Source: a virus
Strand: one strand, 5' to 3'
DNA length: 30,393 bases
Virus record (IMG/VR): IMGVR_UViG_3300034104_001181
Coordinates: 1 to 30,393 of that record
The position numbers and the translations under genes were made by a program. This document shows positions 506 to 14,106 of the stretch, piece after piece. Position 1 is the first letter of the stretch; each line of letters starts with the position of its first letter. Under the pieces are notes generated by a model. It searched no databases, was not told the origin of the DNA, and saw only the letters and a program-made list of their open reading frames with translations.

Positions 506-802
506 ATGGAAAAGATAGATAAAAGAAAGTTCAATGGTGGTAACAGTACCAAGTCAAATGGAGCTGATAAAAGAAAGAACGAATATCGTACAGCATTAGA
601 ACAAGCTGCAACTGTAGAAGATGTAATACAGGTAATTAAAATGGTACATACTAAAGCAGTAAGTAAACAAGATATAAAAGCAGCTCAATTATTCTTAGAA
701 TACTATTTAGGAAAACCAAATCAAAGTATTGATATTAACTCTAGCGAAGGGTTTAATATTGACTTTAGAAATCTATTTACTTTTAATGATTCAAATAAAT
801 AA
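506..802 (+). CDS. terS: Putative terminase small subunit
   Basis: This 98-residue protein lies directly upstream of the large terminase and overlaps it by 17 bp. It would bind phage DNA at the packaging site and hand it to the large subunit. The N-terminus is basic (KIDKRKFNGGNSTKSNGADKRKN). The middle is helical, and its segment DIKAAQLFLEYYLGKP matches the 'Ala-rich helix then lGkP' pattern I know from small terminase proteins of many phages. I chose ATG 506 over an in-frame TTG at 491. The assignment rests on position plus this weak motif; the protein is short for a full TerS. Confidence 0.7.
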   Translation: MEKIDKRKFNGGNSTKSNGADKRKNEYRTALEQAATVEDVIQVIKMVHTKAVSKQDIKAAQLFLEYYLGKPNQSIDINSSEGFNIDFRNLFTFNDSNK

Positions 803-1994
803 CAAGTATCGAGTTATCGGTGAAGCTGATAGTAGATATTTTGTAGTTACAGGTGGTAGAGGATCTGGTAAATCTTACTCAGTGAATCTACTACTTACTA
901 TGCTTACTTATGAAGCAGGTCACACAATACTATTTACAAGATACACTTTAACATCAGCTTATATTTCTATCATACCTGAGTTTATAGATAAAATAGAAAC
1001 GCTAGGGTTACATAACGACTTTCACATAACGAAAGAAGAAATAGTAAATCTAAGAACTGGTAGTAAGATATTATTTAAAGGAATTAAAACAAGTAGTGGA
1101 GATCAAACAGCAAACCTTAAATCTTTACAAGGTGTTACTACTTGGGTACTAGATGAAGCAGAAGAACTAGTAGATGAAGATACTTTTGATAAAATAGATT
1201 TGTCTATTAGAAGCAAAGACAAACAGAATAGAGTTATTTTAATACTTAACCCAACTACAAAAGAGCATTGGATATATAAACGCTTCTTTGAAAGTAAAGG
1301 TATACAAGAAGGAAGTAATATAACTAAACAAGATACTACTTACATACACACAACTTATTTAGATAACTTAGATAATCTTTCGGAATCTTTTATAACTCAA
1401 ATAGAAGATATAAAGAAACGCAGACCTGAAAAGTTTAAACATCAAATCGAGGGTGGCTGGTTACAAAAAGCAGATGGTGTTATCTTTAATAATTGGAGTA
1501 TCGGTAAATACGAACACGTAGGAAAAACTGTCTGGGGACAAGATTTCGGTTTCAGTAATGATCCAACAACTTTAATAGAATGCAATATAGACGTTTCTAA
1601 CAAACGAATTTATATTAATGAATGCTTTTACTTACCTAACCTTACAACATCGCAGATATTCAATTTAAATAAGCAATACGTTAACGATGGACTTATAATA
1701 GCAGATAGTGCAGAGCCAAGATTAATAACTGAGTTAGCACAATCAGGTTTAAATATTACTCCTGCAATTAAAGGACCAGGATCTGTTACATACGGAATAA
1801 GTTTATTACAAGATTACGATTTAATAATAACACCTGAATCAGTTAACTTAATTAAAGAGTTAAACAATTACGTTTGGTTAGAAAAGAAATCAAACACTCC
1901 AATCGATGCGCACAATCACCTTTTGGACGGACTCAGATACGCTGTTAGTTATCAATTAGAGAATAAGCACAAAGGTAACTATTACGTTTACTAA
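786..1994 (+). CDS. terL: Terminase large subunit (packaging ATPase and nuclease)
   Basis: This 402-residue motor protein pumps DNA into the prohead and cuts it. The ATPase domain has Walker A GGRGSGKS at about residues 23-30, Walker B TWVLDEAEE with D123-E124, and a coupling motif ILILNPT. The RNase H-like nuclease domain shows its three acidic sites in WGQDFGFSNDPTT, IIADSAEPRLI and DAHNHLLDGLRYAV. Length and motif order fit the Terminase_3/6 type. I start it at ATG 786 (MIQINNKYRV); an in-frame TTG at 729 would add residues lying out of frame over the small subunit. The 3' end overlaps the next ATG by one base (TAATG). Confidence 0.95.
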   Translation: MIQINNKYRVIGEADSRYFVVTGGRGSGKSYSVNLLLTMLTYEAGHTILFTRYTLTSAYISIIPEFIDKIETLGLHNDFHITKEEIVNLRTGSKILFKGIKTSSGDQTANLKSLQGVTTWVLDEAEELVDEDTFDKIDLSIRSKDKQNRVILILNPTTKEHWIYKRFFESKGIQEGSNITKQDTTYIHTTYLDNLDNLSESFITQIEDIKKRRPEKFKHQIEGGWLQKADGVIFNNWSIGKYEHVGKTVWGQDFGFSNDPTTLIECNIDVSNKRIYINECFYLPNLTTSQIFNLNKQYVNDGLIIADSAEPRLITELAQSGLNITPAIKGPGSVTYGISLLQDYDLIITPESVNLIKELNNYVWLEKKSNTPIDAHNHLLDGLRYAVSYQLENKHKGNYYVY

Positions 1995-2146
1995 TGACTT
2001 ACGGAGAAATAATAGCAGTAATACAATGCTACATACATCATAGCACAGGAAAAGAAGTACAAATCAATTTACCTAGAACTGTAGGTGAGATTAAGAAGAT
2101 GAAAGCTATGTACGAAGTATCTATTAAAATGTTAAAGTTTTGTTAA
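1994..2146 (+). CDS. Small hypothetical protein
   Basis: This protein has 50 residues (MTYGEIIAVIQCYIHHSTGK...), starting at the TAATG overlap with the terminase stop. I do not recognise it. The frame ends in codons for K-M-L-K-F-C followed by TAA, which lie inside the first two TGTTAAAG operator-like repeats, so coding and regulatory sequence share the same bases here. The one-base overlap with terL implies translational coupling. Confidence 0.65.
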   Translation: MTYGEIIAVIQCYIHHSTGKEVQINLPRTVGEIKKMKAMYEVSIKMLKFC

Positions 2147-2159
2147 AGAAATGTTAAAG
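2130..2159 (+). promoter_or_regulatory. Operator-like array O1: three TGTTAAAG elements, 11-bp period
   Basis: TGTTAAAG occurs at 2130-2137, 2141-2148 and 2152-2159, exactly one 11-bp step apart, so all copies face the same side of the helix. The last copy starts 33 bp upstream of the -7 box of P1. The same tandem element at the same period precedes promoters P2, P3 and the minus-strand P4. Confidence 0.7.
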
Positions 2160-2162
2160 TTT

Positions 2163-2192
2163 TTTTAGTTTAAAATATTGTTTGTAGTTTTA
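2163..2192 (+). promoter_or_regulatory. Promoter P1 (Bacteroidetes type, weak match)
   Basis: TTTT at 2163-2166, an 18-bp spacer and TAGTTTTA at 2185-2192 match the TTTG-N18-TATATTTG of P2 and P3 with deviations. The placement is fixed mainly by the leader that follows, CATAATTAAAAACAAA then ACTATGAAA, which is nearly identical at P2 (22251) and similar at P3. It drives the gene at 2216 and probably the tail operon. Confidence 0.5.
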
Positions 2193-2215
2193 CACCATAA
2201 TTAAAAACAAAAACT

Positions 2216-2317
2216 ATGAAAACATTTATTAAATTCTTTTTACAGAACAAAAGACCACAGCTTACATTTGCTTATTTAGTTTTAATCTATGTAATAATTC
2301 AAATAGCAAGAATATGA
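2216..2317 (+). CDS. Small single-pass membrane protein (first gene of P1 unit)
   Basis: This protein has 33 residues: a basic N-terminus (MKTFIKFFLQNKRPQ) and one hydrophobic helix (LTFAYLVLIYVIIQIARI). It is the first ORF after promoter P1, and its stop TGA overlaps the next ATG (2314). There is no recognised family. The preceding leader is shared with the first genes of P2 and P3, so these leaders appear to be optimised translation starts. Confidence 0.55.
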   Translation: MKTFIKFFLQNKRPQLTFAYLVLIYVIIQIARI

Positions 2318-2544
2318 TAGATCCTACAGAAACTTGGACAGGTGATTGGGAGTATAGCAACGAAAGAAACTTCTGGCACAATCAGGACTTCGAAAGTGAT
2401 GAAGCTAAGATATATGTTAAAGAACTTGAAGCTAAAATATCTAGCACTAAAAAAGAACTAACTAAGCTTAAAGATTATTTTAAAACAACCAATCAAATAC
2501 TATTGACTAATGAACTTGAAGGAATACTTAAAAGATTACAATAA
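2314..2544 (+). CDS. Hypothetical coiled-coil protein
   Basis: This is an acidic 76-residue protein. The first 25 residues are rich in Trp/Tyr/Asp/Glu (ETWTGDWEYSNERNFWHNQD). A predicted coiled coil covers about residues 28-75, with repeated Leu/Ile and Lys (KELEAKISSTKKELTKLKDY). It starts by ATGA overlap with the small membrane protein. I do not recognise a family; position between terminase and tail genes and its small size suggest an accessory role. Confidence 0.7.
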   Translation: MIDPTETWTGDWEYSNERNFWHNQDFESDEAKIYVKELEAKISSTKKELTKLKDYFKTTNQILLTNELEGILKRLQ

Positions 2545-2548
2545 AACA

Positions 2549-2767
2549 ATGGAAGCTTTTAAATGGTGTATAGAGAATGGTATTACTATTTACCCTATTT
2601 GCTTACAAGATTATTATATGGAAGGCAAAAGAAAGATAAACAAAGTAAAGATAGAAATAAATATAAACGGAAGTAAGTTACAAGGTAAACAGATATATAA
2701 GCAGGATCAGGAACTGCATAATAAAATAAGCGAATTATATTTGCATTATAAAAACAGAGCTTCATAA
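2549..2767 (+). CDS. Hypothetical protein
   Basis: This is a basic 73-residue protein beginning MEAFKWCIENGITIYPICLQ. I prefer ATG 2549, four bases after the previous stop and preceded by the A-rich leader ATAAAACA. An upstream in-frame ATG (2510) would overlap the preceding gene by 35 bp and is the alternative start. The segment YPICLQDYYMEGKRKINKVKI, then a basic 'K-I-Y-K-Q' stretch and a helical end, has no family I recognise. It closes the P1 unit: a strong hairpin terminator follows at 2795. Confidence 0.65.
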   Translation: MEAFKWCIENGITIYPICLQDYYMEGKRKINKVKIEININGSKLQGKQIYKQDQELHNKISELYLHYKNRAS

Positions 2768-2794
2768 TTAGTAGGTTAAATTTTGTTTGGTTAG

Positions 2795-2820
2795 GGTAGT
2801 CAGAAATGGCTACCTTTTTT
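2795..2820 (+). terminator. Intrinsic terminator
   Basis: GGTAGTCA, loop GAAA (a GNRA tetraloop) and TGGCTACC form an 8-bp stem including one G-T pair, followed by six T. It ends the small-gene unit before the tail operon. The GGTAG...CTACC stem recurs in four of the other terminators of this genome. Confidence 0.88.
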
Positions 2821-2844
2821 GCTTTATACAAATAGCTTAAATAA

Positions 2845-2862
2845 TTATTTTTAAAATAAAAT
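2845..2862 (+). promoter_or_regulatory. AT-rich structural-gene leader motif (copy 2)
   Basis: ATTATTTTTAAAATAAAAT ends immediately before the tail chaperone ATG at 2863. It is nearly identical to the leaders at 9851, 10694 and 14087. Confidence 0.5.
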
Positions 2863-3549
2863 ATGCAACTACAAATAACTATACCAACTTCTTTAAACGA
2901 AATTACCTTAGAGCAATATCAAAGGTTTGTATCTATTATGGAGAACAATCCTGAAAGTGATTTTGTACAGCAAAAGATGATAGAGATATTTTGTAATGTA
3001 CCTTTAAAGTTAGTTCCTACAATTCCTTTAAAAGAAGTTAACGAAATTATAGCTTTACTAAACGAAATGTTTAATGCAGAATATAAACTTAAACCTATAT
3101 TTAAACTGGGTAATACTAACTTTGGTTTTATTCCTAACTTAGATGAAATTAGTTTAGGTGAGTTTAGTGATTTAGATGCTTACTTTGGTAAGTGGGATAA
3201 GATGCATAATGCTATGGCTGTATTATATAGACCAATAGTAGAAAAGTATAAAGATAAATATAATATAGAAGATTATAACGGAAGTATTACTTACTGTGAT
3301 GTAATGAAACAGATGCCAATGGATGTAGTAATGGGTGCTATGGTTTTTTTTTACAATTTAAGCAGCGAGTTAATAATCAGTTCCCTGAATTATTTGGAGA
3401 AGAATCCTCAGGTACAAGCTATGATAGACAAGCACAATTTGGAGCAAAATGGGGATGGTATTCATCTTTCTATGCTTTATCTAAAGGAGATGTTAGAAGA
3501 TTTGATGAAGTTTCCAAATTACGATTATATGCAGCCCTTACATTCCTAA
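2863..3549 (+). CDS. Tail assembly chaperone, short form (gpG-like)
   Basis: This 228-residue protein is the unshifted product. It should help the tape measure protein and tail tube assemble and is not part of the virion. The N-terminal half (residues 1-160) is mixed and contains KMHNAMAVLYRPI and MPMDVVMGAMVFF, a pattern I associate with tail chaperones of Bacteroidetes phages. At codons GTT TTT TTT TAC (3343-3354) the sequence is slippery. Without a shift the chain continues YNLSSELIISSLNYL to the stop at 3549; with a -1 shift it gives the long form ending at 3608. The terminator and leader motif just upstream suggest that it begins a transcription or translation unit. Confidence 0.78.
   Translation: MQLQITIPTSLNEITLEQYQRFVSIMENNPESDFVQQKMIEIFCNVPLKLVPTIPLKEVNEIIALLNEMFNAEYKLKPIFKLGNTNFGFIPNLDEISLGEFSDLDAYFGKWDKMHNAMAVLYRPIVEKYKDKYNIEDYNGSITYCDVMKQMPMDVVMGAMVFFYNLSSELIISSLNYLEKNPQVQAMIDKHNLEQNGDGIHLSMLYLKEMLEDLMKFPNYDYMQPLHS
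3344..3352 (+). other. Putative programmed -1 ribosomal frameshift site (nine T)
   Basis: In frame the bases read GTT TTT TTT TAC, which contains the X XXY YYZ heptamer T TTT TTT. Slipping back one base gives TTA CAA as the next codons and opens 85 codons with no stop. The frame is closed upstream by a TGA near 3297 and has no good start, so it can only be reached by frameshifting (or by an indel in the T run). Confidence 0.75.
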
Positions 3550-3608
3550 CTTTTGAAAAAGAAAAACAAGATATAGAAACACAAATGCTAAAACGAAATG
3601 GTATATAA
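3351..3608 (+). CDS. Tail assembly chaperone, frameshifted C-terminal domain (gpT-like)
   Basis: This is the extension reached by -1 slippage, giving a fusion of about 248 residues (163 from frame 0 plus 85). Its protein reads LQFKQRVNNQFPELFGEE, then FGAKWGWYSSFYALSKGD, VRRFDEVSKLRLYAALTFL and TFEKEKQDIE. That run is highly protein-like and matches a pattern I know from Bacteroidetes-phage tail proteins (F-x-W-G-W-y-x-s-i-y-a-L-a-K-G-D, then F-E-K-E-K). For about 200 bp both frames code. The fusion ends 11 bp inside the next gene. In lambda the corresponding gpG-T binds tail tube and tape measure; that role here is inferred. Confidence 0.8.
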   Translation, partial: LQFKQRVNNQFPELFGEESSGTSYDRQAQFGAKWGWYSSFYALSKGDVRRFDEVSKLRLYAALTFLTFEKEKQDIETQMLKRNGI

Positions 3609-4020
3609 TTTAATACAAACTATTAAGGATGCTTTATTAGCAGAACCTTTTTGTAACACAGTAACTGAAGGAGATATATTTCAAGTTGATTTAAACAAAC
3701 GCACTATATTTCCTTTAACTCACATTATGGTTAATTCTTCAACGCATCAAGGTAATGTTATTTCATTTAACGTTACAATGCTTTGTATGGATATGATAAA
3801 CCAAAAGGAATCAGATAACAAAGTAGATATTTGGAATACTCAGCACTTATTAGCTACAAGGGTTTTAGATTTACTTAATAGAGGTGATTTAAGAGATAGT
3901 ACTTACGAGTTAACAGGTAACCCAAGTTATGAGCCTTTTACAGAAAGATTTGAAAACGATCTAGCAGGTTGGGCAGTTACATTTGATATATTAGTTAGAA
4001 ACGATATGAGCATATGTTAA
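3598..4020 (+). CDS. Putative tail terminator / minor tail protein
   Basis: This 140-residue protein begins MVYNLIQTIKDALLAEPFCN. The opening 'short helix, then F-x-N-T-V-T-E-G-D-I-F-Q-V-D-L' and the later strand-rich body with R-F-E-N-D-L-A-G-W-A-V-T-F-D fit the small alpha/beta proteins that sit next to the head-tail joining genes of siphoviruses and cap the tail tube. Position between the chaperone and the gp10-like protein supports this. It overlaps the frameshifted chaperone by 11 bp and the next gene by 7 bp. The role is inferred from order and shape. Confidence 0.6.
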   Translation: MVYNLIQTIKDALLAEPFCNTVTEGDIFQVDLNKRTIFPLTHIMVNSSTHQGNVISFNVTMLCMDMINQKESDNKVDIWNTQHLLATRVLDLLNRGDLRDSTYELTGNPSYEPFTERFENDLAGWAVTFDILVRNDMSIC

Positions 4021-4526
4021 AAACAGATGAAGTATATAAATACTTAAATAACTTTGCTAAATATGTTATACAGCAATCTAGGAGTAACTTAACTAAGCAA
4101 GATAAGAATGTAAATAAAAAACTTTATGATAGCTTAGATGCAGAAATAGAAGTAGGTGCTAATAGTTTTAGGTTAGAATTTTTAATGGAAAACTATGGTG
4201 TATTCCAGGATCAAGGTGTTAGTGGTACACAAAGAAAATATGATACACCATTTAGCTATAAATCTAAAATGCCACCTGCAAAACCTATTACTGATTGGGT
4301 GGCTAAAAAAAGATTTCAATTTAGAAAAGCAGATGGTAAATTTATGAGTTACCAGCAAACAAGTTATTTAATAAGAAGTAGTATATTTAAAAAAGGTATA
4401 AAACCAAGTTTGTTTTTTACCAAACCATTTGAAGCAGCGTTTAAAAACTTACCAGATAAATTAGTAGATAAGTTTGGTTTAGATATAGAAAAATTAATAG
4501 AACATAGTTTAAAAGATATAAAATAA
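4014..4526 (+). CDS. Tail completion / neck protein (HK97 gp10-like)
   Basis: The protein has 170 residues. A helical N-terminal region (residues 1-45, KYLNNFAKYVIQQSRSNL) is followed by LEFLMENYGVFQDQGVSGTQ, the characteristic 'Y-G-x-[FY]-x-D-x-G-x-x-G' segment of gp10-like head-tail joining proteins. It also has KPSLFFTKPFEAAFKNLPD. Such proteins connect the tail to the neck of the capsid. It overlaps both neighbours: 7 bp upstream and one base downstream (ATAATGG). The family call is good; the exact role in this virion is inferred. Confidence 0.72.
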   Translation: MLKTDEVYKYLNNFAKYVIQQSRSNLTKQDKNVNKKLYDSLDAEIEVGANSFRLEFLMENYGVFQDQGVSGTQRKYDTPFSYKSKMPPAKPITDWVAKKRFQFRKADGKFMSYQQTSYLIRSSIFKKGIKPSLFFTKPFEAAFKNLPDKLVDKFGLDIEKLIEHSLKDIK

Positions 4527-5644
4527 TGGAAGTATTTAATTGTAGAAGTCCTTATATAGTTTCGATAAATGAAGCATCAACACAAATAGAAACTAAGTTA
4601 GAGCTTTTTATTTGGAATTTTAATGAAACAGAGCCAACAACACCTACTAAAGTTTTACAAAAAACAAGGTTTAGCGACACACAATATATTAATCATTATA
4701 ATATATCACCTTTTGTATATGATTTAATTTTACCTTATAATATTAATTCATCAGTATATAATGTAAAATATCTTACATATTATAAAGATGAAGGAGATAC
4801 TGAATTTACTTATATTAGTACTTATAATCTTTTAAGTGTTAATGGATATAGTGAATATAATGAAGGAACAAACGCTATTAAAACTATTAATGAAGGAGCA
4901 TTACCATTATTAAACCCTGATATAAATCGTTATATAAATTATTATAGAGCAGGTGGATCTTTATATGAGCCAACTATAGATGTAATATTTGATTTTACAG
5001 TTTATGATAGATATAGAGTTACTATTGAAAGTGGAGAATATGGAAATGTTACTTATATAGATGCAGGAGATTATGATACTGATTATGCTGTTAGTAGCTT
5101 TTATATGAGTGCAGCAGGAGTGCCTGAAGTTGCAAATGGAAATGATTTTATTATTGAATATCGTTATGAAGGTAATTATTATGAATTGGTAAGATATACT
5201 TTAACTCCTATATGTGAAACTAAATATACTCCATATATTTTAGATTTTGTAAATAATTGGGGTGGTTTACAAAAAATTACTTTATTTAAAAATAGCACTA
5301 AAACTATTGATGTAAAAGGATCTGATTATAATACAAATACTTTTACAAGTGGTTATCCAAATTATGATGCTCAATTAGGACAAAAAAGAATATTTAATAA
5401 AAACGGAACTACTACAATAAAATGTAATACAGGTTGGATAAAAGAAATTGAAAATGCTAATATTAAAGATATAATGTTATCTGAATATTTATATCTTAGG
5501 TCAGCAGATTCAGGTTTAAGTTTTGCAGCAGCTGTTACTTTAAAAAATAGTTCTATGTTAATGAAAACGCATTTAAACGAAAAAGTAATTAACTATGAGT
5601 TAGAGTTTGAAGTAGCAAATAGTTTAATAAACAATGTAGTATAA
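4526..5644 (+). CDS. Tail-tip protein of a Bacteroidetes phage family
   Basis: This is a 372-residue, beta-rich protein with no signal or membrane segment. The C-terminal half has a signature I know from Bacteroidetes phages: CETKYTPYILDFVNNWGGLQ, then GYPNYDAQLGQKRIFNKNGT, CNTGWIKEIENANIKDIMLSE and MKTHLNEKVINYELEFEVA. It sits beside the next, larger tail protein and upstream of the tape measure. In related phages such proteins lie at the distal tail; that location is inferred. The stop overlaps the start region of the next gene. The middle part (residues 130-240) is less conserved-looking and Tyr/Asp-rich. Confidence 0.65.
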   Translation: MEVFNCRSPYIVSINEASTQIETKLELFIWNFNETEPTTPTKVLQKTRFSDTQYINHYNISPFVYDLILPYNINSSVYNVKYLTYYKDEGDTEFTYISTYNLLSVNGYSEYNEGTNAIKTINEGALPLLNPDINRYINYYRAGGSLYEPTIDVIFDFTVYDRYRVTIESGEYGNVTYIDAGDYDTDYAVSSFYMSAAGVPEVANGNDFIIEYRYEGNYYELVRYTLTPICETKYTPYILDFVNNWGGLQKITLFKNSTKTIDVKGSDYNTNTFTSGYPNYDAQLGQKRIFNKNGTTTIKCNTGWIKEIENANIKDIMLSEYLYLRSADSGLSFAAAVTLKNSSMLMKTHLNEKVINYELEFEVANSLINNVV

Positions 5645-7920
5645 TGGTATCAGTAGAAGTATATATTAAAGTAGGAGAAGAATACAAGCGATTAGATTTG
5701 TTTAAAGATGAGAAGATTAGTTTAACTTCTTCTATTCAAAATGTAAACGATTTAAGCAAGGTATTTACTGATTACACTCAGAGCTTTACTGTACCTGCAT
5801 CTAAAGTAAACAATCAAATATTTAACTATTGGAATGAAAATGCAGTTAATGATGGTTTCGATCAACGAGTAAGATACGATGCAATAATAGAACTTAATAC
5901 AATACCATTTAAAAAAGGGCAGATACAAATTGAAAAGGCAAACGAAAAAAATAATAGAGTTGAAAGCTTCTCAGTTACTTTCTATGGTAAAGTAAAACAA
6001 ATTAAAGATTTATTTAAGGATGATAGATTAGGTGTTTTAGATTACACTTCACTTAATCATAATTATACGCCTACAGAGGTTAGAAATAGAATTGATGGAA
6101 CGACAAACGATGGCGTTTATTATCCTATTGTAGGTAATCAACACCAATACACTTATGGGAATGGCGGAGCTTACGATGTAACTATTGGGTCAAGCCCGGA
6201 CACTTCGGTAGTTTATTCCGATTTATTCCCTGCTATTCCTGTAAGTAAAGTGTTTGAGTTTATAGAGAATAGATATGACATAACTTTTACAAGCACTTTG
6301 TTTGATACTTCCTATTTGAGTGAACTTTATTTGTATTGTAAGAATAGTGAGCAACAAAAGATATTATCAGCACCTGAAAGAGTTTTATTTACAACAAATA
6401 CTGGTGACTATATTGATGCAGTAAATCAAACAAACAATACTTTTACTTTTAATCCATCTCAAGGCAATACGTTAAGGTTAGTATTAAAATGCACCCCGGA
6501 TAATGATACTATTATGTATAGAGTACATAAAAAAAGTACAGATGGAAATATGCATACTATTTACGATAATTTATATGGAGAGCAATTTGTAATAATTTTT
6601 GATGGTAGTGAATTTGGTTTAAATAATACAATTTATTTTGAAATAGAATCAGCTGGAGTTTTAAATTTTAGTACAAGATTATCAGTTCAATATTATGGAT
6701 ATGATGAATTTGGAGATTTTACAAATTATTTAGTTGGGTTTTATTCAGGAGTATTAAGCACTACCTCTACTATTGATTTAGGTGTAAGAGTTCCAGACAT
6801 AAAAGTAGTAGATTTTTTCAACGGAATTATTAAATTATTTAATCTTACAATTACTGCAACTTCGGAAACTTCTTTTAATTTAGAACCTTTGGAATTTTAT
6901 TATGCTTATGGTGATTATATAGATATTAATAGCTATGTAATTAATGATAGTGTAGATTTAGAAAGAACTAAATTATTTAAGAAGTTGTCTTTTAGCCACG
7001 AAAAATCGGATAATATATTAAACAACTATTTTAGAAATACGTTTCAAAGAGGTTACGATTATGGAGATTTAATTTATGAAGATAATTTAAGTAATGAAAG
7101 TAATACATACGAAATAAAAACTCCTTTTGAGAATGTAATGTGGGAAAGAGTAACTGATGAAAACTTTTTAACTACTTCATTAATTGATAAAGATTTAAAA
7201 CCATACAAACCTAAACCTATATTAATGTATAAAAATAATTTAGGTGGTGATGCTACAGATTTAAATACTGCAATTAAATTATTTGATGGTACTAATTATA
7301 ATGATTTAATTAAGTATGTAAGATTTTCAAATGAATTATTTATTAATAATGATATAGCAAGTTTAAACTTTAATGAGGAGCAGTCAAGTTGGAATTTAAG
7401 TGCTTTAGCAAGTGATAGTTTATTTGCTCTTTGGTATAGAAACTATATTAGTGGTTTATATGATATACGCTGTAGAATAGTTAAATTAAAAGCTATTATG
7501 CCTATTACTAAATTATCTGATATTAAATTAAATGATAAAATAGTTTATAAGGATAAAAAATATATTATAAATCAATTTACTGCTGATTTAACTTCAGGCG
7601 AAGTTGATTTTGAATTAATATCTGATTTTAGAGCAGTAACTAATTCTGCAAATGGTACTGATAGATTTGCTTTAAAACAAATATTTACAATAGATAATAC
7701 AGCACAAGATTTAGAAGTAACTATTTTAAAATTAAATAGTGAATATTACGATGTAGCGTATGCAGGTACTTCTTACGAAAGTTTAGATAATTATGCAGAT
7801 GGAACTTTTATAATACCTATTGATGATAATACTACTGGTGATTATGCTTATAAACAAATAGAAATTACTTACCACAACCCTGATTTAAAACAATACATAA
7901 ACATTATACAAAATGCTTAA
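5644..7920 (+). CDS. Large tail-tip / hub-like protein
   Basis: This 758-residue protein starts MVSVEVYIKVGEEYKRLDLF and contains SSIQNVNDLSKVFTDYTQSF, TVPASKVNNQIFNYWNE and IPFKKGQIQIEKANEKNN, a widely shared start of large tail proteins in Bacteroidetes phages. A second conserved part is PDIKVVDFFNGIIKLFNLTI (about residue 380). It probably forms the tail hub or adhesion base together with the upstream 372-residue protein. Bases 6060-6230 and about 6490 use CCC/CCG/ACG/TCG-type codons that the flanks avoid, hinting at an exchanged internal segment (residues about 140-290). It overlaps the small gene at 7913. Confidence 0.72.
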   Translation: MVSVEVYIKVGEEYKRLDLFKDEKISLTSSIQNVNDLSKVFTDYTQSFTVPASKVNNQIFNYWNENAVNDGFDQRVRYDAIIELNTIPFKKGQIQIEKANEKNNRVESFSVTFYGKVKQIKDLFKDDRLGVLDYTSLNHNYTPTEVRNRIDGTTNDGVYYPIVGNQHQYTYGNGGAYDVTIGSSPDTSVVYSDLFPAIPVSKVFEFIENRYDITFTSTLFDTSYLSELYLYCKNSEQQKILSAPERVLFTTNTGDYIDAVNQTNNTFTFNPSQGNTLRLVLKCTPDNDTIMYRVHKKSTDGNMHTIYDNLYGEQFVIIFDGSEFGLNNTIYFEIESAGVLNFSTRLSVQYYGYDEFGDFTNYLVGFYSGVLSTTSTIDLGVRVPDIKVVDFFNGIIKLFNLTITATSETSFNLEPLEFYYAYGDYIDINSYVINDSVDLERTKLFKKLSFSHEKSDNILNNYFRNTFQRGYDYGDLIYEDNLSNESNTYEIKTPFENVMWERVTDENFLTTSLIDKDLKPYKPKPILMYKNNLGGDATDLNTAIKLFDGTNYNDLIKYVRFSNELFINNDIASLNFNEEQSSWNLSALASDSLFALWYRNYISGLYDIRCRIVKLKAIMPITKLSDIKLNDKIVYKDKKYIINQFTADLTSGEVDFELISDFRAVTNSANGTDRFALKQIFTIDNTAQDLEVTILKLNSEYYDVAYAGTSYESLDNYADGTFIIPIDDNTTGDYAYKQIEITYHNPDLKQYINIIQNA

Positions 7921-8071
7921 AAATATTATAACACTATTACAGCTACACGAACATTATGGAGTTAGTGAAAATATAGAAATTGCAAAAGGTAAAAATGAAT
8001 TACCTAAAACATTTAAAAAAACAATACCACAACTTAAAAGAGTAATAAAATGGCAATTACAAAAACAGTAA
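7913..8071 (+). CDS. Small hypothetical protein before the tape measure gene
   Basis: This basic 52-residue protein (MLKNIITLLQLHEHYGVSEN...) ends KRVIKWQLQKQ. It starts inside the end of the hub gene and ends 22 bp inside the tape measure gene, in a different frame from both. The compact overlap on both sides and the coherent helical sequence support a real gene. I know similar short ORFs at this position in Bacteroidetes phages, but not their function. Confidence 0.6.
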   Translation: MLKNIITLLQLHEHYGVSENIEIAKGKNELPKTFKKTIPQLKRVIKWQLQKQ

Positions 8072-9831
8072 GCTTAGATGTACAAACTAATTTAGACGAA
8101 ACTACTAAATCAGTAGGTAGTTTAAAAGCACAATTAAGAGAAGCACAAGCTGAGGTTGCTGCATTATCTGATAAGTTTGGTGCTACTTCTAAAGAAGCTG
8201 TAGAAGCTGCTAAAAGAGCTGCTGAATTAAAAGACAGAATAGGAGATGCAAAAACATTAACTGAAGCATTTAATCCTGATGCTAAATTTGCTGCTTTAAC
8301 AAATAGTTTATCAGGTGTAGCAGGTGGGTTTTCTGCTGTTACTGGTGCTATGGGATTGCTTGGTAGTGAAAGTGCGGAAGTAGAGCAAATGATACTTAAG
8401 GTTCAATCTGCTATGGCTATTTCACAAGGAATACAAGCAGTTGGAGAAAGTATAGATAGCTTTAAACAATTAGGAGCAGTTATTAAAAGTGCAACTGTAT
8501 TTCAAAAATTAAATTCAGCAGCAACTACAGTAGCGGCTACAGTTCAAAAATTATTCACAGGAGCAGTAAACACTACAGCAGTATCATTTAATGCTTTAAA
8601 AGCAGCTATTGTATCTACAGGAATAGGTGCATTAGTAGTTGGTTTAGGTTTTTTAATATCAAAGTTAATGGCTAGTAGTGATGCTACAAAAGAGTTAACT
8701 GATAAACAAAAGTTATTGAATGAGGAGTTAGAATATACTAAAGAATTATCAGAAGATAATGCAAAAACAATAGACTATAACACTAAAACAGCTATAGCTT
8801 CTGCAAAACAAAGAGGTGCTTCTGAAAAAGAATTATTAAAAATTCAATTAGATGCTTTAGAGAAAAAAGGTAAAGCTAATGCTGCTGAATATGAGAAAAT
8901 AAAAAGTTCACAAGATAAAGAATATAATTTAACTAAAGAACAAACTAAAAGATTACAAGAATTAAGAGAACAAAATATTGGTTTACAAAGAGAAGGTAAT
9001 TTACTTATTGCTGAAATAAATGCTTCTGCTGCAGAAAAAGCTAGACAAGAAAATCAAAAAAATGCAGATGCAGCTGCAAGTAAAAATAAAGCTGATAGAG
9101 AAAAACAAATAGCAGAAGAAAAAGCAAGAAGGGAAAAAGAATTACAAGATTTAAAAGATTTTCAAAAAATAATTAGAGATGCAGAAGCTGAAGATGGTGC
9201 AGCTAAAGTTTCTGAAAGATTATCTAGAGAACAAAGTACAATAGATTCTTTAAATGCTATTGCAGATGAACAAGATAGGATAGAAGAAGAAAATTTAAGA
9301 AAAAGACAAGAAGCCGCAGATAAAGAATTAGAAATAGAAAGATTAAAACAACAAGGAAAAGTAGTTTTAGCACAAAAAACATCTGAGTTATTAGGTACAT
9401 TTTCTGATTTATTAGGTAAACAAACTGCAGAAGGTAAAGCTCTAGCAATAGCACAAGCCACTATTAATGCTTATTTAGGTATTTCGGAAGTATGGAAAGC
9501 AAAAAATGTTTATCCTGAGCCTTTTGGAACTGCAACTAAAATAGCATCTACTGTTGTTATAGCTGCCTCTGCATTTAAAACTGTTAAAGATATTGCTGCT
9601 GTACAAGTTCCTGGTGGTGGCGGTGGTGGTGCTGGATCTGCTCCTGCTGCTGGTGGTGCTGCTCCTGCTGCTCCTTCTTTTAACGTAGTAGGTAATAGTG
9701 GTACAAATCAACTTGCACAAGTAATGAATCAACAAGGAATGCCACCTGTACAAGCTTTTGTAGTTGCAAGTAATGTAACATCAGCACAAAGTTTAAATAG
9801 AAACATAGTAAACAACGCTACTTTAGGCTAA
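8050..9831 (+). CDS. Tape measure protein
   Basis: This 593-residue protein is Ala/Lys/Glu-rich. It would span the tail lumen and set tail length; at roughly 0.15 nm per residue this predicts a tail near 90 nm. It shows an N-terminal coiled coil (about residues 15-75, SLKAQLREAQAEVAALSDKF), a hydrophobic stretch ALVVGLGFLISKLM near residue 200, long charged coiled coils (about 220-460) and an Ala/Gly/Pro-rich linker near residues 520-540 (GGGGGGAGSAPAAGGAA). It starts at ATG 8050 after the A-rich GTAATAAA leader. Reverse-strand frames inside it are shadows of its repetitive composition. Confidence 0.85.
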   Translation: MAITKTVSLDVQTNLDETTKSVGSLKAQLREAQAEVAALSDKFGATSKEAVEAAKRAAELKDRIGDAKTLTEAFNPDAKFAALTNSLSGVAGGFSAVTGAMGLLGSESAEVEQMILKVQSAMAISQGIQAVGESIDSFKQLGAVIKSATVFQKLNSAATTVAATVQKLFTGAVNTTAVSFNALKAAIVSTGIGALVVGLGFLISKLMASSDATKELTDKQKLLNEELEYTKELSEDNAKTIDYNTKTAIASAKQRGASEKELLKIQLDALEKKGKANAAEYEKIKSSQDKEYNLTKEQTKRLQELREQNIGLQREGNLLIAEINASAAEKARQENQKNADAAASKNKADREKQIAEEKARREKELQDLKDFQKIIRDAEAEDGAAKVSERLSREQSTIDSLNAIADEQDRIEEENLRKRQEAADKELEIERLKQQGKVVLAQKTSELLGTFSDLLGKQTAEGKALAIAQATINAYLGISEVWKAKNVYPEPFGTATKIASTVVIAASAFKTVKDIAAVQVPGGGGGGAGSAPAAGGAAPAAPSFNVVGNSGTNQLAQVMNQQGMPPVQAFVVASNVTSAQSLNRNIVNNATLG

Positions 9832-9850
9832 ATAACAATTTAATATAATA

Positions 9851-9868
9851 TTAATTTTTAAATAAAAA
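9851..9868 (+). promoter_or_regulatory. AT-rich structural-gene leader motif (copy 3)
   Basis: TTAATTTTTAAATAAAAA lies 4 bp before the protease ATG at 9873 and matches the leaders at 2845, 10694 and 14087. Confidence 0.5.
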
Positions 9869-9872
9869 CTAA

Positions 9873-10466
9873 ATGAATTTAATTGAATTAATTATAGACG
9901 ATAACGAAGAATTGCAAGGTGTAGAAGCTATTAGCGTAGTAGAATCACCTGCAATAGAATCTGACTTTGTAGCTTTAAAAACAGAAGAAGTTAAACTTGC
10001 TGAGGTAAGTAAAGAAAAGCGTATCTTAATGGGTGCTGTATTAATACCGGAAAAACCTATCTATAGAAAAAGTGGAGATACTGAATATTACATTTACTTT
10101 TCTAAAGATACTGTAGTAAAAGCATCTCAATTATTTTTAAAGAAAGGTAACCAATCTAACAGCACTTTAGAACACCAAAAAGCTATTGAAGGTTTAACAG
10201 TAGTTGAAAGTTGGATAGTAGAAGATTTAACTAAAGACAAATCTGCTTTATATAATTTAAGTGTACCTGTAGGGACTTGGATGGCTTCTATAAAGGTTGA
10301 TAATGATGAAATATGGAATGACTTTGTAAAAACAGGTAAGGTTAAAGGGTTTAGTTTAGAAGGATATTTTGCAGACAAATTAGAATCTAAAAAAGAATTA
10401 AGCAAAGAACTTACAGAAGAAGAAAGTTTAATAGAGCAAATTAAAGAAGTATTAAGAAACAATTAA
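9873..10466 (+). CDS. Prohead maturation protease, XkdF-like serine protease
   Basis: This 197-residue protein would cleave scaffold and capsid delta regions during head maturation. It opens MNLIELIIDDNEELQGVEAI with VVESPAIESDF, a feature of XkdF-like (S78-type) phage proteases, followed by RILMGAVLIPEKPIYR. The likely catalytic residues are His101 in STLEHQKA and Ser161 in VKGFSLEGYF. The C-terminus is a charged helical tail (KELSKELTEEESLIEQIKEV). It lies upstream of the scaffold-like and capsid genes, as expected, but after the tape measure gene, which is not the common order. Confidence 0.85.
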   Translation: MNLIELIIDDNEELQGVEAISVVESPAIESDFVALKTEEVKLAEVSKEKRILMGAVLIPEKPIYRKSGDTEYYIYFSKDTVVKASQLFLKKGNQSNSTLEHQKAIEGLTVVESWIVEDLTKDKSALYNLSVPVGTWMASIKVDNDEIWNDFVKTGKVKGFSLEGYFADKLESKKELSKELTEEESLIEQIKEVLRNN

Positions 10467-10476
10467 AATAAATAAT

Positions 10477-10671
10477 ATGAGCAAAAAAACAAAAAGTAAA
10501 ACAAGCCCAGAAGGTGGTAGAAAAGGTTGTTTATGTGATGACGGAACTTATAAATCAGAATGCTGTAATGGAGATCTACAAAATCAAGGTGTAGGTACAT
10601 TAGTAAGTCAAGGTGTTAGCGAAGTAACTAATACAAATGAAGCTAGAGTAATAAGTAACTCAAGAGGTTAA
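10477..10671 (+). CDS. Small cysteine-containing phage protein
   Basis: The protein has 64 residues: a basic Lys/Ser/Thr-rich start, then GRKGCLCDDGTYKSECCNGD, then a polar Gln/Val/Ser-rich tail. The G-C-L-C-x-D-G-T-Y-x-x-x-C-C pattern is common in small ORFs beside capsid genes of Bacteroidetes phages, in my recollection. The four closely spaced cysteines suggest metal binding or disulfides. It starts 10 bp after the protease stop. The function is unknown, but its position suggests a head-associated role. Confidence 0.65.
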   Translation: MSKKTKSKTSPEGGRKGCLCDDGTYKSECCNGDLQNQGVGTLVSQGVSEVTNTNEARVISNSRG

Positions 10672-10693
10672 AAATATAACAAATAAACAATTA

Positions 10694-10710
10694 TTAATTT
10701 TTAAAATAAA
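10694..10710 (+). promoter_or_regulatory. AT-rich structural-gene leader motif (copy 4)
   Basis: TTAATTTTTAAAATAAA lies 4 bp before ATG 10715; it is one of the best copies of the shared leader. Confidence 0.5.
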
Positions 10711-10714
10711 AACA

Positions 10715-11071
10715 ATGCGTAACGAATTAAACAACGTAACAAGCAAGTTATTTAAAACAGAATTAGCAAATCATAAAGTTGATCTAGCTTTAATTGATGA
10801 TATTAAAGGATCTACAAAAGGTGTAAATAATTTTTCAAATAATATTGATATAGATGTAAAAGAATTAGAACAAATTAAAAATTCTTTAACAGTTGATTTA
10901 AAAGATTTAAAACGAGATTTAGATAGATTAAAAAATGAAATAAATAAATTAAATTCAACAACTAAAGATTTAGGTTTAAATCCAGATACTATTGATGGAT
11001 ATAAAGAAGCTTTATCAGCTATTAAAAAAGGTGAAGAAAAAATAAATTTAGGTGAAAAATTTATAAAATAA
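10715..11071 (+). CDS. Hypothetical coiled-coil protein near the head genes
   Basis: This is a 118-residue, charged and helical protein. A predicted coiled coil runs over about residues 45-85 (ELEQIKNSLTVDLKDLKRDL). I do not recognise a family. Its place between protease and scaffold-like gene and its own copy of the shared leader suggest a late, head- or tail-associated product. A bidirectional-looking hairpin terminator follows at 11090, and beyond it the genes turn to the minus strand. Confidence 0.7.
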   Translation: MRNELNNVTSKLFKTELANHKVDLALIDDIKGSTKGVNNFSNNIDIDVKELEQIKNSLTVDLKDLKRDLDRLKNEINKLNSTTKDLGLNPDTIDGYKEALSAIKKGEEKINLGEKFIK

Positions 11072-11089
11072 AATATTTATAATATTAAA

Positions 11090-11117
11090 GGGTAACTTAA
11101 TTGTTACCCTTTTTTTA
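11090..11117 (+). terminator. Intrinsic terminator between convergent genes
   Basis: GGGTAAC, loop TTAATT and GTTACCC form a perfect 7-bp stem followed by eight T. It lies between the plus-strand gene ending at 11071 and the minus-strand gene ending at 11115; on the minus strand the run after the stem is only TTTAATATT, so termination there would be weaker. Confidence 0.88.
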
Positions 11118-11327
11118 TAAGTTTTCAATATGTTCTTTTAAATGATGTATTTCTGCATCTCTTTCTATAAGTTCTTCCATTAATTCATTATTTTTTACTT
11201 GTATATTATAATAATAATTTGTTTTTGATATAATTTCATCAATAAAATGTATCCATAAATAAATAATACAAGGTATCATAGTTAAGAATAACATAACAAA
11301 AAAAGTTATTTCTATTGTTTCTTTCAT
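11115..11327 (-). CDS. Small membrane-anchored coiled-coil protein (minus strand)
   Basis: This 70-residue protein has a hydrophobic segment at about residues 8-30 (ITFFVMLFLTMIPCIIYLWI), then a charged helix ending EELIERDAEIHHLKEHIENL, likely a coiled coil in the cytoplasm or periplasm. It is the last of three genes on the minus strand, an island inside the otherwise plus-strand structural region. I do not recognise it. Minus-strand inserts of this kind are often 'morons' with host-directed or exclusion roles; that is inference from position only. Its leader contains a tandem repeat (11335-11388). Confidence 0.65.
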   Translation of the reverse strand: MKETIEITFFVMLFLTMIPCIIYLWIHFIDEIISKTNYYYNIQVKNNELMEELIERDAEIHHLKEHIENL

Positions 11328-11334
11328 AATTATT

Positions 11335-11388
11335 TTTTTAAGGTTATAAGTTTAAAATTTATTTATTTTTTAAGGTTATAAGTTTAAA
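11335..11388 (-). repeat. Tandem direct repeat, 22-bp unit, 32-bp period
   Basis: The unit, five T then AAGGTTATAAGTTTAAA on the plus strand, occurs at 11335-11356 and 11367-11388 without mismatch. It lies in the leader of the minus-strand gene 11115-11327 and includes the stop of the gene 11384-11482. A repeat with AT-only spacing may be a protein-binding or RNA element, or the result of a duplication. Confidence 0.75.
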
Positions 11389-11482
11389 TTTTTTTATTTC
11401 TTTCTTTTAATTCTCCTATCTTAATATATATTCTAGCTTGTATAATATAAACTAAAATAAATGTAATAACTTTCCAAATCAT
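11384..11482 (-). CDS. Small membrane peptide (minus strand)
   Basis: This 32-residue protein begins MIWKVITFILVYIIQARIYI and ends with a basic tail KIGELKERNKKI. One hydrophobic helix covers residues 2-16. The ATG overlaps the stop of the 72-residue gene upstream on the minus strand (ATGA), so coupled translation is likely. The function is unknown. It is short, so the overlap and hydrophobic helix are its main support. Confidence 0.5.
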   Translation of the reverse strand: MIWKVITFILVYIIQARIYIKIGELKERNKKI

Positions 11483-11697
11483 AACCTTTCTATTTCTTGT
11501 TTAACTTCTGTATAAAATTTTTCAATAGCCCAATTTTCTTCATCACAATTAGAAAGTCCTAAATTCAAATCTATTATTTCATCAATTGCTATTAATGCAC
11601 ATTCCTTAGCTATATCAAAATGACCATTAAAAATATATTCACCTAATAATTGATAATATTCATCAACTAACATTTCTGCTTTTTCTTTTGGTTTCAT
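11479..11697 (-). CDS. Hypothetical acidic helical protein (minus strand)
   Basis: This acidic 72-residue protein begins MKPKEKAEMLVDEYYQLLGE and continues with FDIAKECALIAIDEIIDLNL; it is likely all-helical. Small proteins with this 'K-A-x-x-L-[VI]-x-x-[YF]' opening are common in flavobacterial phages and their hosts, but the function is not known to me. It is the first gene behind the minus-strand promoter P4 (-7 box 11712-11719), which carries the same TGTTAAA array as the plus-strand early promoters, so it is probably expressed with them. Confidence 0.7.
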   Translation of the reverse strand: MKPKEKAEMLVDEYYQLLGEYIFNGHFDIAKECALIAIDEIIDLNLGLSNCDEENWAIEKFYTEVKQEIERL

Positions 11698-11711
11698 AAT
11701 TTATTTTTTCA

Positions 11712-11741
11712 CAAATATACAAACTAATTTAATATAAAAAA
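11712..11741 (-). promoter_or_regulatory. Promoter P4 (minus strand, Bacteroidetes type)
   Basis: On the minus strand TATATTTG at 11719-11712 is a perfect -7 box. TTTT lies 18 bp upstream (11741-11738). The start ATG is at 11697, after the leader GAAAAAATAAATT. This drives the three-gene minus-strand island. Confidence 0.7.
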
Positions 11742-11743
11742 CA

Positions 11744-11762
11744 TTTTAACATAACATTAACA
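11744..11762 (-). promoter_or_regulatory. Operator-like array O4: two TGTTAA elements, 11-bp period
   Basis: On the minus strand TGTTAATG (11762-11755) and TGTTAAAA (11751-11744) are 11 bp apart; the nearer one starts 32 bp upstream of the P4 -7 box. This repeats the geometry of O1 and O3 on the opposite strand. Confidence 0.6.
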
Positions 11763-11790
11763 TTTATAAAAATGTAACAAACTATAATAA

Positions 11791-11809
11791 CTTTTATTTT
11801 AAAATAAAG
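11791..11809 (+). promoter_or_regulatory. AT-rich structural-gene leader motif (copy 5, diverged)
   Basis: CTTTTATTTTAAAATAAAG lies 24 bp before ATG 11834. Upstream (about 11759-11778) is an imperfect inverted repeat, AACATTT then AAATGT. No TAnnTTTG box facing the plus strand is evident in this divergent spacer. Confidence 0.35.
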
Positions 11810-11833
11810 TATTTAACTAAATTAAATATAAAT

Positions 11834-12427
11834 ATGTCAAATGTAATTAATCAAATCAAAACCATTTTGGGAATGGAAGTAAAACTTGCCCAAATGAAGT
11901 TAGATAACGGAACGGTTTTAGAAGCTGAAGCTTTTGAGGCTGGTATGCCTGTTTTTATCGTTAACGAAGAAGATCGTATCGCTTTACCAGTTGGAGAGTA
12001 CAAACTAGAAGATGGTATGATGCTAATCGTTGTTGAAGAAGGTATTATCGCTGAAGTTAAAGAAGCAGAAATGCCTGAAGCTGAAGCAGAAATGCCTGAA
12101 GTAGAAGTAGAAATGCCTGAAGTAGAAGTAGAAGTTGAGCAAGAAATGTCAGAAACTGCTACTCCTAAAAAAGTTATCGAATCTACTATTAGAGAATCTC
12201 ACTTTTCAAAAGAAGAAGTAGACGCTTTAAAAGCAGAAATTGAAGCTTTAAAAACTGAATTAGCTTCTTTAAAAGAAGTAAAAGAAGAAGAAGGTGTAGA
12301 ATTATCTGCACAACCTTTAGTACACAACCCAGAAGCTAAATCTGAAGTTAAATTAAACTTATACTCACAAAGCAGAAGTAAAACTACTTTTGATACTGTG
12401 TTAGGTAAAATTGCAAATATTAAATAA
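11834..12427 (+). CDS. Putative capsid scaffolding protein
   Basis: This very acidic 197-residue protein lies directly upstream of the major capsid gene. The first part (residues 1-75) contains QMKLDNGTVLEAEAFEAGMP and LPVGEYKLEDGMMLIVVEEG. Then a Glu-rich repeat of EMPEVEV-type heptads (about residues 79-105), a coiled coil (KEEVDALKAEIEALKTELAS) and a basic C-terminus ending SKTTFDTVLGKIANIK follow. Acidic body plus basic capsid-binding tail is the usual scaffold plan, and I know this family just before capsid genes of Bacteroidetes phages. The head protease upstream may remove it. Confidence 0.72.
   Translation: MSNVINQIKTILGMEVKLAQMKLDNGTVLEAEAFEAGMPVFIVNEEDRIALPVGEYKLEDGMMLIVVEEGIIAEVKEAEMPEAEAEMPEVEVEMPEVEVEVEQEMSETATPKKVIESTIRESHFSKEEVDALKAEIEALKTELASLKEVKEEEGVELSAQPLVHNPEAKSEVKLNLYSQSRSKTTFDTVLGKIANIK
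12066..12136 (+). repeat. In-frame 21-bp tandem repeat coding EMPE(V/A)E(V/A)
   Basis: Three tandem units of GAAATGCCTGAAG plus eight more bases encode EMPEAEA, EMPEVEV and EMPEVEV inside the scaffold-like gene. The last two are nearly identical at DNA level, suggesting recent duplication and likely length variation between relatives. Confidence 0.75.
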
Positions 12428-12450
12428 TAACAAATTAAACACTAAAAAAG

Positions 12451-13404
12451 ATGCCGACTACAACATCAATTACAACTACTTATGCTGGTGAATTTGCAGG
12501 TAAATATATCTCTGCTGCTTTATTATCAGCTGCTACTATCGAAAACGGTGGTATTGAAGTAAAACCAAACGTTAAATACAAAGAAGTAATTAAAAAAATT
12601 GCTACTGATGCTATCGTTAAAGATGCAACTTGTGACTTTACTGCTACTTCTACTGTAACTTTAACTGAGAAAATTTTACAACCTGAAGAATTTCAAGTAA
12701 ACTTACAACTTTGTAAAAAAGATTTCCACTCAGATTGGGAAGCTGTACAAATGGGTTACTCTGCTTTTGATTCTTTGCCACCATCATTTGCTGATTTCAT
12801 TTTATCTCACGTAGCTGCTAAAGTTGCTGAGAAAACAGAACAAAACATCTGGAGAGGTGTTACTGCTAATGCAGGTGAATTTAACGGATTCGCTACATTA
12901 TTAGCTGCTGATGCTGCTTTACCAACTGCACAAGAAGTTGCTGGTACTACAGTTACTGCTTCTAACGTAGTTGCTGAGTTAGGAAAAATTGTTGATGCAG
13001 TTCCTGCTTCACTTTACGGAAAAGAAGATTTATACTTATATGTGTCTCAAAACATCGCTAGAGCTTATGTAAGAGCTTTAGGTGGTTTTGGTGCTTCAGG
13101 TTTAGGTGCTAATGGTACTAACAATATGGGTACACAATGGTGGAATAACGGAAGTTTATCATTTGATGGTATTAAAATTTTCGTTGCTAATGGTTTAGCT
13201 GCTAACACTGCTGTAGCTACTTTAAAATCTAATTTATTCTTTGGAACAGGTTTATTAAACGACCTTAACCAAGTTAAATTGATTGATATGGCAGATTTAG
13301 ATGGATCTGAAAATGTAAGAGTAGTTGTACGTTTCACTGCAGGTGTACAATACGGAATTGTTGAGGATATCGTAACTTACGGAATCACTAACTCTGCTAA
13401 CTAA
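12451..13404 (+). CDS. Major capsid protein
   Basis: This 317-residue protein is the main shell subunit. The sequence MPTTTSITTTYAGEFAGKYI, VKYKEVIKKIATDAIVKDAT and NLQLCKKDFHSDWEAVQMGY matches the Bacteroidetes-phage major capsid family that I know from flavobacterial and gut phages. It presumably has the HK97 fold. Ala/Gly-rich stretches and well-used codons (GCT, GTT, AAC, TTC are more frequent than in neighbours) fit high expression. It follows scaffold by 23 bp and is followed by a strong terminator at 13427. Confidence 0.88.
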   Translation: MPTTTSITTTYAGEFAGKYISAALLSAATIENGGIEVKPNVKYKEVIKKIATDAIVKDATCDFTATSTVTLTEKILQPEEFQVNLQLCKKDFHSDWEAVQMGYSAFDSLPPSFADFILSHVAAKVAEKTEQNIWRGVTANAGEFNGFATLLAADAALPTAQEVAGTTVTASNVVAELGKIVDAVPASLYGKEDLYLYVSQNIARAYVRALGGFGASGLGANGTNNMGTQWWNNGSLSFDGIKIFVANGLAANTAVATLKSNLFFGTGLLNDLNQVKLIDMADLDGSENVRVVVRFTAGVQYGIVEDIVTYGITNSAN

Positions 13405-13426
13405 TAATTAGCAAACTAACTTAAAA

Positions 13427-13458
13427 GGGTGGTGGAAAAAACACCATCCTTTTTTTTT
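13427..13458 (+). terminator. Intrinsic terminator after the capsid gene
   Basis: GGGTGGTG, loop GAAAAAA and CACCATCC form an 8-bp stem with one G-T pair, followed by nine T. Confidence 0.9.
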
Positions 13459-13487
13459 ACTAATAACTCAAAATAAATATATAAATT

Positions 13488-14015: not shown

Positions 14016-14038
14016 TATTTAACTATATTACTTTTAAA

Positions 14039-14063
14039 GGGTGGCTAATTGCTACCCTTTTTT
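14039..14063 (+). terminator. Intrinsic terminator after the tail tube gene
   Basis: GGGTGGC, loop TAATT and GCTACCC form a 7-bp stem with one G-T pair, followed by six T. Confidence 0.88.
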
Positions 14064-14086
14064 AGTTATAACAAATTTGTACTTTT

Positions 14087-14104
14087 TTAATTTTTAAAAT
14101 AAAA
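14087..14104 (+). promoter_or_regulatory. AT-rich structural-gene leader motif (copy 6)
   Basis: TTAATTTTTAAAATAAAA lies 2 bp before ATG 14107; together with the copy at 10694 it defines the consensus. Confidence 0.5.
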
Positions 14105-14106
14105 CA

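Follow-up and report, generated by a model that had tools for sequence, protein, structure and literature searches.

This locus raises the question of whether a run of nine T inside a viral gene marks the entry into a second, hidden reading frame and, if so, what the gene does. The window analysed here is the whole stretch of 30,393 nucleotides of IMG/VR virus record IMGVR_UViG_3300034104_001181. In frameshifted tail chaperones such as lambda G/GT and P2 E/E+E', the products bind both the tape measure protein and the tail tube protein but are not part of the virion. An initial annotation of the window had proposed that the gene is the equivalent of lambda gpG/gpGT. Here, we report that this gene of Bacteroidota phages, which probably serves tail building, does contain a genuine second reading frame and, judging from the comparison of sequences, that this frame is very probably entered by ribosomes that move back one base at a defined position and thereby make a longer second protein. 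In total, we assign a probability of roughly 0.8 to the reading that the gene encodes a frameshifted tail assembly chaperone, with a product of 228 amino acids and a slippage-made fusion of 248 amino acids.

The slip site and the two reading frames

The 0-frame ORF (2863-3549, plus strand) encodes a gpG-like product of 228 amino acids that consists of an N-terminal domain followed by a 65-codon extension in the 0 frame, and that matches phrog_32199 (E 1.5e-19). The AF2 model of this product has a mean pLDDT of 87.7, with high confidence over the first ~180 residues and lower confidence in the remainder. Counted from the ATG at 2863, the nine-T run (3344-3352, plus strand) is read in the codons GTT TTT TTT TAC, i.e. 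the heptamer T_TTT_TTT (3345-3351) is placed in the 0-frame register required for tandem -1 slippage. The -1-frame ORF (3351-3608, plus strand) has 85 codons and a stop, and encodes a T-like domain with a W-G-W-Y motif that is predicted to be helical (AF2 mean pLDDT 83.2). This frame is closed upstream by TGA at 3297-3299, is open from 3300 to 3605 and ends with TAA at 3606-3608. It lacks a usable start; its sole ATG, GTG or TTG in the window is the ATG at 3585, which is codon 79 of 85. The predicted fusion comprises 163 + 85 = 248 residues. On re-reading the sequence, we found the T run and its codons, the 85 open codons up to 3608 with a TGA upstream, the lack of a usable start and the length of the fusion just as the initial annotation had given them. 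The next gene in the ORF list (3598-4020, plus strand, 140 amino acids) starts with an ATG inside the -1 frame and shares the last 11 bases of that frame; among the relatives described below, a next ORF was found in 289 of 317 rows, and in 260 of these 289 it overlaps with the -1 stop.

In the mechanism that we propose, the majority of ribosomes would translate 2863-3549 and yield the 228-amino-acid protein. At GTT TTT TTT, a fraction would slip back one base, with both tRNAs re-pairing on T_TTT_TTT, and would then read the -1 frame to 3608, yielding a 248-residue fusion whose last 85 residues form the helical T-like domain. We infer both the ribosomal nature of the slip and its rate. By analogy to lambda gpG/gpGT (PMC5009743), the shared N-terminal part may bind the tape measure protein while the -1 domain may recruit the major tail protein. 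A stimulatory RNA structure was not found in four windows past the site in the 40 of 62 representatives that were folded (mean z -0.42, -0.38, -0.10 and -0.04); in two comparison windows upstream of the site, the mean z was -0.34 and -0.12.

Conservation of the offset and replacement of the heptamer

Relatives were gathered by scans of viral contigs and one scan of genome contigs, which together gave several hundred loci; the sample leans towards sequences matching the query patterns, and the family is larger than the sample, with at least 587 viral contig stretches matched in one scan. The genome-contig scan gave two loci, both in metagenome-assembled genomes. A prophage search with the -1 profile in 395 genomes of the phylum gave two matches, one of which was a genome already known and the other a match of 34 residues (E 1.9e-4), and a DNA-level search of phage records gave short, weak matches only. 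When 431 loci were scanned with two profiles, the first part of the gene was missing in three and the second in six; after identical stretches had been collapsed, 315 non-identical stretches with both parts remained, including the window and the cultured Nonlabens phage P12024L.

In all 315 non-identical loci, the second part lies in the -1 frame. Since this offset is kept in every locus while identity to the window falls as low as 24% for the 0-frame protein and 22% for the -1 protein, it is not due to chance. A T run of a length that puts the two frames in phase, named by the initial annotation as the mark of an indel, was found in 0 of 315 rows, and eight loci with T10 runs also keep the -1 offset. 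Homologues of the -1 frame beside the 0-frame gene, which the initial annotation had likewise singled out as informative, are present in 315 of 315 rows by the way in which the rows were chosen, and 6 of the 431 loci lack the second part. A single gene broken by a fixed indel or by a homopolymer miscount during assembly is, therefore, ruled out by the 315 loci in the -1 frame: homopolymers do favour sequencing errors, but the offset recurs in the cultured phages P12024L and P12024S, selection on both frames (see below) contradicts a break, and we regard the probability of this explanation as negligible.

The heptamer T_TTT_TTT is in register in 313 of the 315 loci, and the length of the T run is 9 or 10 in 313 as well. 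The codons around the heptamer vary, with GTT, CTT, ATT, GGT, AGT or TTT preceding it and TAC, TAT, TGG, TCG, TTG, TTC, TGC, TCA or CTG following it. Moreover, of the 87 rows scored at position X, the free third base of the heptamer, 97.7% share one base (85 T, 2 A); the position ranks first among 35 third-base columns scored alike, of which the next reaches 74% and the median is 49%. Both Phe codons are TTT in all rows with T_TTT_TTT, compared with roughly three in four Phe codons upstream.

One of the two exceptions (L178, 2608-3216) lacks the internal stretch spanning the slip site, reflecting either an assembly error or a broken gene. The other (L368) has no T run and instead carries A_AAT_TTT in register. 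A scan with the -1 protein of L368 gave 19 loci; 15 of these contigs, including L368, have GTA, ATA or GCA followed by AAT TTT, and the remaining four carry the T run. In this clade, the X base stays A even though the amino acid encoded by its codon changes, and the two rows with A at position X in the scored set are rows with A_AAT_TTT. In a tree of 98 rows, which is based on few columns and has many open forks, the nine A_AAT_TTT rows form one side of a branch with support 100/99 and are nested among relatives with the T run.

The swap bears on the possibility that RNA polymerase, rather than the ribosome, slips on T9, so that a share of T10 mRNAs is read normally into the -1 frame and gives the same protein as the ribosomal product. 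The T9 run is longer than the heptamer and would also suit such transcriptional slippage, the near-universal T9 or T10 run fits it, and homopolymeric A or T runs are described as transcriptional slippage sites (PMC3711429). However, the longest homopolymer at the site in the 15 A_AAT_TTT contigs is four at most while the register is kept, i.e. a long homopolymer is not common to all members of the family. Similarly, rows in which the run is shifted (GGT or AGT TTT TTT TTG) still hold the heptamer in register, and the T flanking the heptamer are explicable by their own codons, which are mostly Val, Leu or Ile before it and mostly Tyr or Trp after it. With homopolymers of at most four left at the site, the A_AAT_TTT clade is unlikely to rely on polymerase slippage and, by common descent, T-run relatives would likewise do without it. 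For the family as a whole, we regard transcriptional slippage as unlikely. The swap drops the homopolymer and keeps X_XXY_YYZ and, therefore, makes -1 frameshifting on the ribosome more likely than an indel or slippage during transcription; a natural exchange of slip heptamers in one register is a clean comparative argument for slippage on the ribosome.

The two cultured Nonlabens phages carry members of the same gene family, with a T9 run and a -1 frame that ends in the same domain as in the window. In P12024L (L270, 14001-14695), the heptamer is in register, and the gene and its -1 frame are annotated as gp40 and gp41, the latter from an internal ATG; the corresponding pair in P12024S (L455) is gp38/gp39. 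In both phages, the two parts are annotated as two separate hypothetical genes. The annotation of gp41 fits the view that the -1 frame is such a gene with its own internal start and, of the 303 rows that have the W-x-x-Y motif, 120 do contain some ATG, GTG or TTG ahead of it. Nevertheless, none lies there in the other 183, the -1 frame has no ATG, GTG or TTG at all in 57 of 317 rows, and the only one in the window comes at codon 79 of 85. Moreover, a separate gene leaves the strict conservation of the slip heptamer unexplained. With ATG, GTG and TTG considered as starts, the rows without any of them rule out an internal start as the general route, and we regard this explanation as very improbable. 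Both P12024 phages probably carry the hidden fusion, as suggested by their sequences. Ordinary annotation missed it because the P12024 records annotate the -1 part only as a separate short gene. Among the papers listed by a literature search, we found no description of a -1 frameshift of this gene in Bacteroidota phages.

Dual coding in the overlap

The 0 frame continues past the heptamer for 65 codons in the window and for a median of 62 codons over 317 rows, so that 3352-3549 (plus strand) is read in both frames. The open-frame analysis used the 308 rows with both stops; the set of 317 arose when nine contigs from the A_AAT_TTT clade, which has 15 in all, were added to them. In 301 of the 308 rows, no stop interrupts the 0 frame within the first 50 codons after the site. 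When the -1 protein was kept and its codons were redrawn, the 0 frame was open for at least 50 codons in 4% of draws with upstream codon usage and in 17% with the region's own usage. In the converse analysis, in which the 0-frame protein was kept, the -1 frame was open throughout in 0.5% of draws. These rows are related to one another and are not independent trials.

The protein encoded by the 0-frame extension is also conserved. Among 62 representatives, its pairwise identity was 0.312 compared to 0.223 (SD 0.003) under a null that assumes independent synonymous choices, an assumption from which upstream codon identity departs slightly (0.464 vs 0.439). In 1118 distant pairs, the identity of the extension was 0.288 compared to 0.210 under the null, with upstream codon sharing of 0.427 vs 0.423 expected from independence. 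The stop count from this pairwise analysis is not a fair measure, the region being defined by the observed open frame; the codon-redraw test is the fair one.

Finally, we counted the differences per codon separately for the three codon positions, using 114 non-overlapping close pairs. For positions 1, 2 and 3, the values were 0.104, 0.065 and 0.306 upstream of the site; 0.136, 0.081 and 0.157 in the overlap, counted in the -1 phase; and 0.105, 0.065 and 0.227 where the -1 frame continues past the 0-frame stop. Thus, the excess at third positions is nearly gone only in the stretch where both frames run. Altogether, these observations support that the overlap of about 65 codons (~200 bp) is coded in two frames, both under selection, and specifies two different conserved protein ends. 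The open-frame, identity and codon-position analyses all agree with the ~200 bp of coding in two frames that the initial annotation had suggested.

The long extension is not universal; P12024L, with 25 codons, and three contigs near it have extensions of only 16-25 codons. We also observed that the +1 frame (from 3353 onward in the window) has a stop two codons past the heptamer in 284 of 313 rows. This early stop is probably forced by the two coding frames, and any product of a T8 run or of a +1 shift would also be cut short by it immediately.

The proposed chaperone role and the known systems

We infer the tail chaperone role from modest structural similarity together with genomic context, and not from a clear sequence family. 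In an alignment of 269 PDB chains with VIA-align 2, only three entries had Z of at least 2, and the HK97 tail assembly chaperone gp13 (PDB 2ob9) was the best, matching the N-terminal 74 residues with Z 4.2 and rmsd 3.5 over 66 residues, at just 6% identity over the structural match. A Z of 4.2 is modest and lies within the range where a match may reflect only a common arrangement. In BFVD, the 39 matches at E <= 0.001 were all uncharacterised or nameless; names first appeared among the weak matches, with a tail assembly chaperone at E 0.05 followed by a tail assembly protein at E 0.28. Foldseek gave no PDB match at E <= 0.001 and a profile search gave no PDB sequence at E <= 1. For the -1 domain alone, the comparison with solved structures gave no useful match, with a best Z of 2.3 and only three chains aligned.

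Sequence families gave a similar picture. No Pfam match was found for the window proteins of this gene, including to the family of P2 E; PF10109 (Phage_TAC_7) was matched weakly by 3 of 66 relatives (best E 0.0081), and NCBIfam gave scattered weak matches only. Among the relatives, 65 of 65 matched phrog_32199 and 3 of 65 matched phrog_166, a 'tail protein' (best E 0.00024). The -1 part matched phrog_38404 in 20 of 66 relatives, while the -1 ORF of the window itself has no PHROG match. Several unnamed viral proteins match the model of the N-terminal part and, less strongly, that of the -1 part, i.e. A0A516L5A8 (E 1.7e-6 and 2.5e-3), A0A6J5N0W0 (E 2.9e-10 and 0.065) and A0A6J7XA66 (E 0.061 and 0.03), which suggests that a single chain can hold both parts.

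The gene lies downstream of the gene for the terminase large subunit, terL (729-1994, plus strand; PF04466, E 8.2e-37), and upstream of a tape-measure-like gene (8050-9831, plus strand, 593 amino acids; phrog_9483 tail length tape measure protein, E 1e-10). Contrary to the initial annotation, which had placed the gene immediately before the tape measure gene, four ORFs (3598-7920) intervene between 3608 and 8050. Within positions 729-16219 of the window, terL comes first, and the genes for a protease (Peptidase_S78_2) and the portal follow after the chaperone and tape-measure-like genes, unlike the order in lambda. No ORF was recognised as a major tail protein gene. The ORFs at 12451-13404 and 13488-14015 have PHROG matches of unknown function only, and capsid and tail tube are guesses for them, with size and place behind the guess of a tail tube protein at 13488-14015. 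From their translations, the ORFs at 21236-21724 and 24326-24742 give the impression of GIY-YIG endonucleases.

The distance to the tape measure gene, the position soon after terL and the absence of a clear chaperone family match in the Pfam, PDB-sequence and NCBIfam searches would fit a gene in which the frameshift is real but the product is a head-tail or other morphogenesis protein. We consider this unlikely: among solved structures the HK97 chaperone matches best, tail assembly proteins are the first BFVD matches to carry a name, and genes of the tail chaperone class typically use -1 frameshifting to add a C-terminal extension (PMC5009743). Thus, of the proposed equivalence to gpG/gpGT, the frameshift design stands on the conserved offset and heptamer, while the chaperone part has a modest structural match and context in its favour.

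An in-register X_XXY_YYZ with a -1 ORF behind it is common to the window family and to the lambda G/GT and P2 E/E+E' type, and a -1 ORF that is under protein-level selection and, in the window, lacks a usable start also fits this type. A place directly upstream of the tape measure gene is usual for the type but does not define it; the lambda genes V-G-T-H are contiguous and P2 E+E' directly precedes the tape measure gene T, unlike the window gene. In P2, a -1 slip on TTTTTTG gives two products sharing an N terminus, with no downstream RNA structure (PMC3091744). We located TTTTTTG in the P2 sequence, and the window family resembles P2 in having a T-rich heptamer and no downstream structure; however, P2 E continues for 6 codons past the site compared to 65 in the window. 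In lambda, a -1 slip gives a minor fusion with the T domain (PMC5009743), and the window gene is similar in its predicted -1 fusion with a T-like domain; the lambda heptamer GGGAAAG lies 5 codons before the end of G. HK97 gp13 has an annotated -1 frameshift like the one proposed here, and no canonical in-register heptamer was found near its end. Among the systems compared, i.e. lambda, P2 and HK97, the 0-frame tail of the window gene is about ten times longer than those of lambda and P2.

A remote relative of the N-terminal part is gp10 of Flavobacterium phage 6H (L450, 10352-10927, minus strand), which was a remote structural match as R9VW65, tied to gp10 by its length of 191 amino acids, and a weak profile match within that genome (E 0.0035). 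It has T_TTT_TTC in register near its 3' end, and ~300 unannotated bases with open frames in other phases follow. We rejected 6H gp10 as an example of the same device because its -1 frame stops at once.

We conclude that the way of working of the gene resembles that of a frameshifted tail chaperone, with dual coding that extends much further than in lambda or P2. The likeness lies in the way of working, and the family searches gave no clear membership in a named sequence family. These observations provide a probable function for families filed as unknown (phrog_32199 and phrog_38404), which occur in hundreds of viral contigs. With its long dual-coded stretch, the gene departs from the layout of lambda and P2, and the function of the unshifted C terminus becomes open to experiment. 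A tentative idea, to which we give somewhat less than even odds, is that this family, which is large, spans Bacteroidota phages as well as uncultured viral contigs and has no name in the libraries searched, encodes in the same 200 bases two tail chaperones with alternative conserved C-terminal domains, the unshifted product having its own selected C terminus with a distinct partner or a role in timing. If so, the unshifted product would not be a mere truncated form, and the frameshift would be a switch between two specialised chaperones.
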